DNA of 64,000 nt, taken from positions 3,162,001-3,226,000 of the forward strand of contig AP018281.1 of the NCBI GenBank assembly GCA_002368355.1, given 5' to 3'. The position numbers and the translations under genes were made by a program. Shown here in pieces: positions 57,481 through 63,290 of this stretch (position 1 is its first letter; every line of letters begins with the position of its first letter). The notes below the pieces were generated by a model that worked only from the letters and a program-made list of their open reading frames with translations, made no database searches and was not told the DNA's origin. This stretch comes from Chondrocystis sp. NIES-4102. GTDB taxonomy: Bacteria > Cyanobacteriota > Cyanobacteriia > Cyanobacteriales > Xenococcaceae.

Positions 57481-58475
57481 CAAAACTGTCTATAAATTTA
57501 CAATAACAAGATTTATAGTGAGTGCGTATTTATTTAGTTAGCTTATGCAAATAAATATATAAGCCAACCTGGATTTACTATTTCTCTTAAGACTTGATCT
57601 TATCAGCTATTTTGCCCGTCGATACTATTTAATTAAATTTTGCTTTACGCCTATCTAGCTGAGGGGATTTTAAGTTTAAATGACAATTACTAGAGAGTTA
57701 AACAACTTTATTGACTATTTATAATTGTGTCGATTTGCCATAATTGCTGTTCTTAGGCAATCTTTTGTTTTTAATAGAGAATGTAATAATTACTTATTTG
57801 GGTTAATTTTTACAATCTAACATATTAATTATTTAATCTGTATTACAAAAATGCCATAACTAACCATGAATTGCCTAAGACTTTGGTTACTGTAAAACCG
57901 TAGGTAGGAATATCCTAACTACATTCATATATCTTATTAAAGTCTGTATCTAATAAACATTATAAATAAATTATAAAAAATAAATGTATCGAACATTATG
58001 CTGTTTGCTGCTGGCTGGAGAAAATTTTTTTTCGCTCAGGTATTAATTCTTATTAACGATCAAATTAAAAAATATAATCATGTTTTATATTGTCAAAGTA
58101 CTCATGGTTATTTATGCTTGATAAGGATAGATAAATTAGCCAGTGCCGTGTTTTTCTGACCTTGTAATTTTGATCAAGGTAGCTGATTGTGCTGCCCTCA
58201 AATATATTCCCAGAAAAAATAATAAAACTCACAAATATCAGGTGAGCCTGGAAAATAAGTTTATTAACCCCGATAAAAAGTTTAAAAAAATCATGTAAAG
58301 CTGATAGGGTAAAACAATGAGAATTGTTTCATGCCTTGCCAGTCACCTACGTGAATTAAAATTTAGGTTGGAAGCAGAAAAAATCAAGAAAAGCTTTCCG
58401 TTTCAATCTAGTAAAAGTTAAATAAGCGTAACTGGCGATCGCTAGTTAAATAAGTTAGATAAAAGGAGTAAAAAT
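57481..58475. promoter_or_regulatory. Shared ~1 kb control region between ndhF3 and ccmK2
   Basis: This gap holds the start regions of two divergent low-CO2 operons. Seen in it are a near-palindrome GTAGGTAGGAATATCCTAACTAC (57899-57921 region) and GTAGCTGATTGTGCT (58179-58193), the latter shared with the rbcL leader. TAGCTGAT also occurs on the minus strand at 57602-57609, 122 bases before ndhF3. AAAGGAG precedes ccmK2. No gene is convincing. Binding of CcmR or RbcR is possible but not shown by sequence alone. Confidence 0.5.
58179..58193 (+). promoter_or_regulatory. 15-base motif shared with the rbcL leader
   Basis: GTAGCTGATTGTGCT lies 283 bases before the ccmK2 ATG and is repeated exactly at 63135-63149 before rbcL. 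A core variant with one change is found before flv4. Function is inferred only from placement. Confidence 0.55.
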
Positions 58476-58787
58476 ATGTCAATTGCAGTCGGAATGATCG
58501 AAACTCTTGGCTTTCCTGCCGTAGTAGAAGCAGCAGACGCTATGGTAAAAGCAGCCCGCGTAACTTTGGTAGGATACGAAAAAATTGGTACAGGTCGTGT
58601 AACAGTAATTGTGCGTGGTGATGTATCAGAAGTACAAGCATCAGTTGCAGCAGGAACAGAAAGCGTTACCAGAGTAAATGGTGGACAAGTTCTATCAACT
58701 CATATCATTGCTCGTCCTCACGAAAACCTAGAGTATGTTTTACCTATCCGTTATACAGAAGAAGTAGAACAATTCCGTACCTACTAA
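58476..58787 (+). CDS. ccmK2: Carboxysome shell protein CcmK2
   Basis: A 103-residue single-BMC-domain protein that forms hexameric tiles of the carboxysome shell. It has the usual [20 protein letters not shown] start, the pore region KIGTGRV and the C-terminal [12 protein letters not shown]. It is the shorter of two tandem copies and is named CcmK2 by length and position as first gene (K2-K1-L-M-N order). An AAAGGAG site lies eight bases before the ATG. Its first 128 bases are identical to ccmK1. Confidence 0.96.
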
Positions 58788-58933
58788 TTGTCTATCTTGA
58801 GCAAGAATTAAATAAAAAGTTCAAACTCAAAAAAAATAAAGTGAAAAATAAGGCGATTAAGCTTACGCCCAAGATTAAGGATTAAGCTTACGCCTAAATC
58901 AAAATTGAAGGAACAATTCAGGAGCAAAAAAAT

Positions 58934-59272
58934 ATGTCAATTGCAGTCGGAATGATCGAAACTCTTGGCTTTCCTGCCGTAGTAGAAGCAGCAGACGCTA
59001 TGGTAAAAGCAGCCCGCGTAACTTTGGTAGGATACGAAAAAATTGGTACAGGTCGTGTAACTGTAATCGTGCGTGGTGATGTATCAGAAGTACAAGCGTC
59101 AGTTTCAGCAGGAACAGAAAACGTAAGTAGAGTAAATGGTGGACAAGTTTTATCAACTCATATCATTGCTCGTCCTCACGAAAACCTAGAATACGTTTTG
59201 CCCATCCGTTATACTGAGGCGGTAGAACAGTTTCGTGAAAGCGTAAATCCTCGTCCTTTGAGAAGACCATAA
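58934..59272 (+). CDS. ccmK1: Carboxysome shell protein CcmK1
   Basis: A 112-residue BMC-domain shell protein, nearly identical to CcmK2 up to residue 90, then with an extra basic tail ending NPRPLRRP. That longer tail fits CcmK1. Differences to CcmK2 within the core are few (for example A/S near residue 56 and SV/NV after it). The 146-base gap to ccmK2 holds a 15-base direct repeat GATTAAGCTTACGCC. Confidence 0.95.
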
Positions 59273-61870: not shown

Positions 61871-61909
61871 TAGCGCACATAATTAGGTTGCGTCTTCTCC
61901 AATAGGACA

Positions 61910-62650
61910 ATGGAGCAGTTGTTTACGATGTGTTATATCTCAGTAACCAAGCTACTAACAACTGTTCCTGCGCCTACTATTAAAATACCGTTCCCAATGA
62001 TTTATTTACCACCCCCGCAACCTGTTTTGAACAAAGATATACGGATTAGTGGTGATGTTGAAATCCATCCCACCGCTTCTTTAGCACCAGGAGTAATATT
62101 ACAGGCAGCACCAGATAGTCGTATTGTTATTGGTGCTGATGTCTGCATTGGTATGGGAGTTATTATTAATGCCTGTGGTGGCTTAATTGAAATTGACAAT
62201 GGTGCAATTTTGGGGGCTGGGGTTTTAATTGTAGGAATAAGTAAAGTTGGTAATAATGCTTGTATTGGCACTTCAACAACTATATTTCAGTCAAATATTG
62301 CAGCGATGACCGTTGTTGAACCTGGTTCAATTATTGGTGATGTTTCACGTAAAAATGATGACCAACAGCAGGATAAACAAGCTGATTTAAAAAGTAAAAA
62401 TACCACTGAATACCAACAGAAAAATTATAGTTATAATCAATCAAATTCACATCAAGCAGAGGTTAGTCCGCCAAATCAGCAACAGCAGAAGTCTGTTGAC
62501 AATCCTGCAAAAGAAAAAGTTAAAAAAGTAGAAACACCAGTTGAGCCGTTAATGGAAACTGAGAAAATTCCAGTAGTCGGACAATTTTATATTAATGAAT
62601 TATTAATCACTTTATTTCCTCACAAGAAAAATAAAAATTCTGAGCCTTAA
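61910..62650 (+). CDS. ccmN: Carboxysome assembly protein CcmN
   Basis: A 246-residue protein with an N-terminal left-handed beta-helix of hexapeptide repeats (about 45-150) that binds the CcmM gamma-CA domain. A flexible Gln/Lys-rich linker follows. The C-terminal amphipathic helix (PVVGQFYINELLITLFP, about 218-235) is the encapsulation peptide that contacts the CcmK shell. The true start may be the ATG at 61997 (MIYLPPPQPV), where the usual CcmN N-terminus begins; the first 29 residues are atypical. It is 39 bases after ccmM. Confidence 0.92.
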   Translation: MEQLFTMCYISVTKLLTTVPAPTIKIPFPMIYLPPPQPVLNKDIRISGDVEIHPTASLAPGVILQAAPDSRIVIGADVCIGMGVIINACGGLIEIDNGAILGAGVLIVGISKVGNNACIGTSTTIFQSNIAAMTVVEPGSIIGDVSRKNDDQQQDKQADLKSKNTTEYQQKNYSYNQSNSHQAEVSPPNQQQQKSVDNPAKEKVKKVETPVEPLMETEKIPVVGQFYINELLITLFPHKKNKNSEP

Positions 62651-63290
62651 AATAATGGGAAAATGGAATATTATTGGTATTAAAATTGTTTTATATAATG
62701 GTGGTCAGAGTTGATGATCCACTAGTGTAATCTATAGTCTAACAGAAAGACAATATTTAATAAAAGTGTCTATTTGTAATTATTATAATTGTAACTTGAC
62801 TAGCAATTACCTAGTTTGATGTTGCTAGATATAGCTAGATTAATATTATGCTGTAAAACCCCAAATTTAATGGGGAAAAGTTATTATATTTCGCTAAGTG
62901 AATAATTAAGTAAATATACTTAGATTGACATTAGGAGTCATGGTTTAAAAAACATTTTAAATTAACATTATAAAAATAATATTAATAATTCTTAACCCAA
63001 ACTTAGTAGTGGGAAATATATATTAGTTTAGTTAATCATTTATAAAAAAGAATTAAATCAAAATCAAGAAAAAATATTTAATAGAAGGATTAACATTCAT
63101 GCTATGGTATTAAAATAGAAAATTGCAGAATAAAGTAGCTGATTGTGCTATTTGAAGCAACGTTTTTTTAAAAGACCGCAAAGATATCTTTCTAGTGATT
63201 TTTTTTAACGGTAATAGAGTCTGTATAGATTTGAGTGGCTCTATAAGAAAGTAAAAATTAAGCGTTTTAATTATGGAGGAATGACCAAAG
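62651..63290. promoter_or_regulatory. rbcL leader region
   Basis: About 640 AT-rich bases between ccmN and rbcL, long enough for an independent promoter and 5' UTR. It contains GTAGCTGATTGTGCT at 63135-63149, 142 bases before the ATG, and a GGAGGA ribosome site at 63275-63280. A weak hairpin CCCC-9-GGGG lies at 62859-62875. No coding sequence is seen. Confidence 0.6.

Follow-up and report, generated by a model that had tools for sequence, protein, structure and literature searches.

Identical letters in the rbcL and ccmK leaders of Chondrocystis sp. NIES-4102: two leader hairpins that are probably alike by coincidence

The rbcL and ccmK leaders of Chondrocystis sp. NIES-4102 share an identical 15-mer, and each copy falls in a predicted hairpin of the leader RNA. 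We consider it probable that, as a whole, the observation is explained by leader hairpins at both places that carry the same letters by coincidence; for the identity of the letters in this one species, coincidence is the most likely reading. As judged from a comparison of leaders, only one of the two hairpins, that of rbcL, is clearly conserved. The features discussed below, all found in a window of 64,000 nucleotides (the whole stretch of DNA that was analyzed), are the following:

58064..58078, + strand: ATTAAAAAATATAAT, one mismatch to the RbcR consensus (consensus from the accessible part of PMC13249358), about 54 nt before the putative ccmK start
58090..58118, + strand: ccmK promoter-like pair TTGTCA-17-TATGCT, in a block conserved among congeners; putative start near 58125
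58178..58196, + strand: ccmK leader hairpin GGTAGC-TGATTGT-GCTGCC, six pairs, one of them G-U, about +55 from the putative start
58179..58193, + strand: ccmK copy of the 15-mer GTAGCTGATTGTGCT, exact match
58228..58246, + strand: second ccmK leader hairpin, CTCAC...GTGAG
63022..63036, + strand: ATTAGTTTAGTTAAT, exact RbcR consensus, about 94 nt before the putative rbcL start (consensus and spacing from the accessible part of PMC13249358)
63111..63116, + strand: TAAAAT, putative -10 of rbcL from a reading of the leaders (TTAACAT in most congeners); putative start near 63123
63123..63160, + strand: outer pairing of TTGC (63123-63126) with GCAA (63157-63160) around the rbcL hairpin
63133..63153, + strand: rbcL 5'-proximal hairpin AAGTAGC-TGATTGT-GCTATTT, seven pairs, about +11 from the putative start
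63135..63149, + strand: rbcL copy of the 15-mer GTAGCTGATTGTGCT, exact match
63214..63244, + strand: second rbcL leader hairpin, ATAGAGTC...GGCTCTAT, core AGAGUY/GRCUCU

As the original prediction had it, identical copies of the 15-mer precede both genes on the coding strand; 282 bases lie between the ccmK copy and the ccmK ATG (58476), and 141 between the rbcL copy and the rbcL ATG (63291). The weak dyad described for the rbcL copy, TTGTGCT with AGCAA six bases 3' of it, is likewise present. No further exact copy exists in the genome (5,000,844 bases). Both copies with one mismatch are within ORFs, and the 30 places with two mismatches or fewer are made up of 23 in ORFs of at least 100 aa, the two copies themselves, and 5 outside such ORFs; a small RNA complementary to the 15-mer was considered at these places and not adopted. 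The flanks of the two copies are dissimilar (5/11 and 2/11). The embedded 14-mer TAGCTGATTGTGCT, searched in the same genome with up to two mismatches, gave at least 114 places versus 11 for the reversed control, among the matches listed; its complement may be a common coding string, which would explain the excess, and two-mismatch matches of the 14-mer mean little.

The low chance of the match that had been put forward holds for the ccmK/rbcL pair, whereas the match is ordinary for a scan over many pairs. When the two leaders were shuffled with their dinucleotides preserved, 39 of 4000 trials yielded a shared string of at least 15 letters. As the real string is not rich in A and T, it was weighted by base composition, which gives it 31.3 bits of information; by arithmetic over 700 x 640 position pairs, this corresponds to a chance of about 1.6e-4 for this pair alone. 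For comparison, we took 313 upstream regions out of 464 kb of this genome, i.e., 48,828 leader pairs, among which about 1.4 chance matches this rare are expected (arithmetic again), and a scan of this size will turn up matches of such rarity. Altogether, 51 of the pairs reach 31.3 bits or more, the target pair among them; all but two of the other 50 come, as judged by eye, from repeat families (heptamer repeats, CCCACAAGGGG repeats, palindromes etc.), and one of the remaining two contains what we take to be the HIP1 palindrome. Because the ccmK/rbcL pair is biologically privileged, the match deserved a check.

The shared letters are not kept in related genomes. The exact 14-mer was found in 2 of 13 congeneric genomes, and as a cis-motif common to carboxysome leaders it is kept in both leaders in only one of the 13, that of the window (G000). 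Among other cyanobacteria, 60 rbcL loci (L064-L123) were searched on both strands over 700 nt upstream, and there the best match to the shared letters never has fewer than three mismatches. In several congeners, a ccmK leader hairpin is present at about this position, with different letters and a loop of different size. A near-copy upstream of flv4, one of the genes proposed for comparison, lies at 936-949 of the window and is absent from all nine congeners whose flv4 leaders were read. Lack of conservation in close relatives, which the original prediction itself had named as evidence against its motif, is thus what we found for the letters. Since relatives are without them, the match looks like chance, and in these comparisons the 15-mer is not a conserved operator.

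The hairpin before rbcL behaves differently from the letters. A predicted 5' hairpin recurs in the rbcL leaders of the family, and it has no counterpart in Rfam (0 matches at E up to 1 across 57400-64000 of the window). Its pattern, which was written after seeing the leaders, is fitted by all 13 congeneric genomes, the window's included; the TAGC/GCTA arms occur in 12 of them (G007 has CAGC), and the loops are variable, 7 or 8 nt long. Against mononucleotide shuffles, the segment with the hairpin ranks above 95% in 10 of the 13 congeners, or in 8 of 11 if only distinct segments are counted, and outside the genus it does so in 5 of 11 members of the family; in g4, g7 and g8, nothing at this spot was better than shuffles. 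The TAG/CTA core is kept in 11 compared sequences of genera g1, g2, g3, g5 and g6, with the adjacent pair being C-G in g1 and U-A in g2, g3, g5 and g6 (U-G in G017), and the fifth stem pair being C-G or U-A outside g1; it should be noted that a structure obtained by folding guided the manual alignment of these sequences, so that the comparison is biased towards that structure. The gap between TAG and CTA is 9 or 10 in the genus (11 of 13 congeners, leaving out G002 and G003 as near-identical to G006) and 16 in g6. A variable gap, together with letters that change and still pair, fits RNA better than an operator with fixed spacing. Within the genus, no pair changed on both sides and covariation was no higher than in shuffles; therefore, the arms could there also be read as a site of DNA binding.

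A covariance model of the rbcL element recovered all 13 rbcL leaders, 11 of which had been built into it; of the 150 candidates that it scored in each genome, nothing besides the rbcL leader had E<0.01. Against this model, of which the window's rbcL copy is a part, the ccmK copy reached 16.9 bits (E 0.29 in the window), and an unrelated place scored higher, with 17.1 bits. The 181-nt rbcL leader from 63115 has a folding z of 0.04, no better than shuffles, so its fold is not unusual as a whole; of eight congeneric 62-nt segments, three (G011, G005, G004) folded preferentially into another structure. RNAalifold did not return the rbcL hairpin on the family alignment, in which MAFFT left the differing stems unaligned; that alignment comprised 15 of 24 leaders and omitted G001, G002, G003, G004, G006, G009, G016, G018 and G023, mostly for inserts. 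In the set of rbcL leaders, L058 is without a start and L060 is too short, and when leader segments were folded, 5 of 21 rbcL and 2 of 20 ccmK leaders had no anchor. The six-pair core AGAGUY/GRCUCU of the second rbcL hairpin is paired in all 15 family leaders of the alignment, again with no match in Rfam.

In the rbcL leaders of G001, G002, G003, G004, G006 and G009, the 5' hairpin stands 207-273 nt before rbcL, versus about 150 elsewhere, and there is extra sequence of roughly 50-120 nt within these leaders. A terminator or attenuator reading of the leader hairpins was rejected: no G+C-rich stem followed by a T run was detected in 58040-58480 or 62800-63300, and the T runs 3' of the rbcL hairpin lie at a distance. 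Outside most subscription journals, no title dealing with a cyanobacterial rbcL leader hairpin turned up among the papers listed.

The ccmK leader (321 nt from 58160) has a folding z of -3.94, and its hairpin is irregular across congeners. The second ccmK hairpin reads CTCAT...ATGAG in 3 of 7 aligned congeners (G010, G008, G005), a change on both sides of the pair. The underlying alignment took in 8 of the 13 congeneric genomes; the ccmK set as a whole consisted of 20 genomes, the window's included, and no ccmK was detected in L156 (G018). The ccmK tandem at 58476-59272 has two nearly identical genes here and three in 9 of 12 congeners. The RNA element that had been suggested for the two operons stands in part: each copy caps a hairpin in a putative leader and the rbcL hairpin is conserved, but that of ccmK is irregular.

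A promoter scan of the ccmK region gave two -35/-10 pairs versus 2.0 expected, so it is conservation, not presence, that gives the ccmK promoter its weight: a strongly conserved block upstream of ccmK in the congeners ends in TTGTCAAAG...TTTATGCTTG and holds the pair. This block (58041-58125, from TATTAATTCTTATTAAC to the ccmK -10) exceeds the length that a plain promoter needs. The TAAAAT before rbcL, 18 nt from the 15-mer, was not picked as a promoter element by the simple scan. Because both copies are downstream of the putative promoters, with the ccmK copy and its hairpin at about +55, we infer that they lie in transcribed leader RNA.

Joint regulation of the two operons is known, and it has a consensus of its own, apart from the 15-mer. 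According to the accessible part of PMC13249358, the LysR-type regulator RbcR recognizes ATTA(G/A)-N5-(C/T)TAAT and acts about 90 nt upstream of the start, and its targets in Synechocystis are rbcLXS, ccmK2K1LMN, ndhF3 and sbtA, with flv4 being likely; these include the genes that the original prediction had linked. An exact consensus stands at the corresponding distance before the putative rbcL start, whereas the 15-mer does not fit the consensus and, being downstream of both putative starts, is not at the position described in that source. The window holds six exact matches to the consensus, a further one of which is within the rbcL leader (63257-63271), and 53 matches with at most one mismatch versus 36.6 expected; since such matches are frequent, the placing of the site at 63022, and not its mere presence, carries weight. 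The joint control of the rbcL and ccmK operons is better explained by the upstream RbcR sites, and the common regulator proposed for the 15-mer finds little support, its letters being unshared by relatives and the RbcR control using another consensus.

Some of the data sit uneasily with pure coincidence, namely the small chance for this pair, a 12-mer in G012 and a 14-mer copy before ccmO in G005, the latter two being weak hints of a link between leaders. Taken together, a real link, through a trans-acting factor or a palindromic operator, appears possible but doubtful. One form of it, a trans-acting small RNA or RNA-binding protein that reads both hairpins, with loops that co-evolve within each genome, we regard as unlikely, even though the window's species has the identical 15-mer in both hairpins and G012 has GTAGCTTAAGTT common to its own two. 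Pairings of the rbcL hairpin with the ccmK leader of its own genome were compared with swapped ones, in tests made after seeing the data and on related genomes that are not independent, so that shared ancestry inflates significance. When the ccmK leader was limited to its first 110 nt, own pairing was better (p 0.0080 for 13 genomes, 0.0022 for 10 non-redundant ones, 0.017 without G000), but p rose to 0.14 without G000 and G012. The full leader gave 0.0093, and 0.076 without G000; both strands of 420 nt in 11 genomes gave 0.059, and 0.23 without G000. With block shuffles as the reference, the own rbcL core against the own ccmK leader yielded a Fisher p of 0.033 over 13 genomes, G000 included. 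The factor itself is hypothetical, and its more specific version, in which one trans-acting RNA or protein reads the rbcL and ccmK hairpins, and perhaps the ccmO promoter, while the variable letters drift together in each genome, is less likely still. Similarly improbable is that a carbon regulator uses the palindrome TAGC-N7-GCTA as its DNA operator, in either orientation, in the rbcL, ccmK and ccmO regions. It is suggested by the sole exact 14-mer outside G000, which is reversed (G005:C120:1926-1939; L178, L227) and stands 100 nt upstream of a ccmO-like tandem BMC gene. In addition, TAGCYDATTGTGCT occurs at 10 places in the 13 genomes (4 rbcL leaders, ccmK of G000, ccmO of G005, and 4 in ORFs), a half-site GGCTAAAC or AGCTAAAC is kept in 11 of 13 ccmO leaders by our own count, and the complete TAGC-GCGATCG-GCTA is found in the ccmO leaders of G012 and G008.

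The palindrome, its TAG...CTA arms and their similar spacing also resemble the NdhR/CcmR motif ATAG-N8-CTAT, as given in the accessible part of PMC13249358. However, the spacing is 9 or 10, not 8, in the genus and 16 in g6, the inner letters are variable, and the site is probably transcribed in rbcL and ccmK, whereas in ccmO we read it as upstream of the promoter; a true NdhR site was rejected, as the rbcL copy is GTAG-N9-CTAT and the gaps in relatives are 9, 10 and 16. Furthermore, in Synechocystis neither rbcLXS nor ccmK2K1LMN belongs to the regulons of NdhR, CmpR and cyAbrB2, as far as the accessible part of PMC12014562 goes. The ccmO match of G005, followed through 13 ccmO, 11 ccmK34, 10 flv4 and 10 sbtA-like leaders (one sbtA-like place per genome; L268 left out as too short), revealed no genus-wide pattern: the ccmO leaders had a Fisher p of 0.065 and an own-pairing p of 0.19 in 11 of 13 genomes (0.31 without G000), and the ccmK34, flv4 and sbtA-like leaders gave no signal (Fisher p 0.19, 0.94 and 1.0). 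The spot of this copy has GCGATCG in 8 of 13 congeneric ccmO leaders and reads GCGATCGGCTAAAC, presumably a HIP1-like form, in 7 of 13. If a short tract had recently been copied from one leader to the other, 5 kb away, by template switching at the hairpins, exact identity in one species only would be accounted for, and hairpins can promote template switching. This reading is very improbable, given that the identity ends sharply at 15 nt and that no sister genome displays the step; moreover, the rbcL loop conforms to what is seen in the genus (TAATTGT in G010, CGATTGT in G005, TTATTGT in G004), so that ccmK would have to be the recipient.

With two separate hairpins as the preferred explanation, the 15-mer would be the tip of a leader-RNA hairpin at each place: for rbcL, a 5'-proximal stem-loop of the mRNA, apparently present throughout the genus and also, though with different letters in its pairs, in four further genera; for ccmK, a looser and probably lineage-specific leader hairpin. 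The rbcL hairpin would guard an abundant mRNA against 5'-end-dependent decay or, alternatively, tune the first steps of transcription or translation. By analogy, a role of this kind at the 5' end of the mRNA is the most likely one for it, because of its position, its recurrence and what is generally known of 5' stem-loops, and the ccmK hairpin may do something similar. Stem-loops of the ompA type at the 5' terminus stabilize bacterial mRNAs. Stabilizing 5'-terminal stem-loops are also described for the 5' ends of chloroplast mRNAs (PMC5897788, accessible part). The rbcL hairpin is like these in being short, close to the putative mRNA 5' end and variable in its loop; it differs in its weak, AT-rich stem with no Rfam match. 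Post-transcriptional control at the 5' region of rbcL has a precedent in RblR of Synechocystis, for which protection from RNase E is proposed (PMC5306279, accessible part); however, RblR is an antisense transcript, whereas here we deal with a leader hairpin read from the DNA.

Transcription factors are the main level at which the balance between Rubisco and the carboxysome shell is discussed (PMC13249358, accessible part). If a trans-acting factor did read both hairpins, it would provide a second, post-transcriptional layer that keeps the output of Rubisco and shell proteins in step. A leader RNA element common to both operons would, if true, be a new layer, which the present data do not establish. 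The rbcL hairpin is a candidate element with a possible role in mRNA stability.
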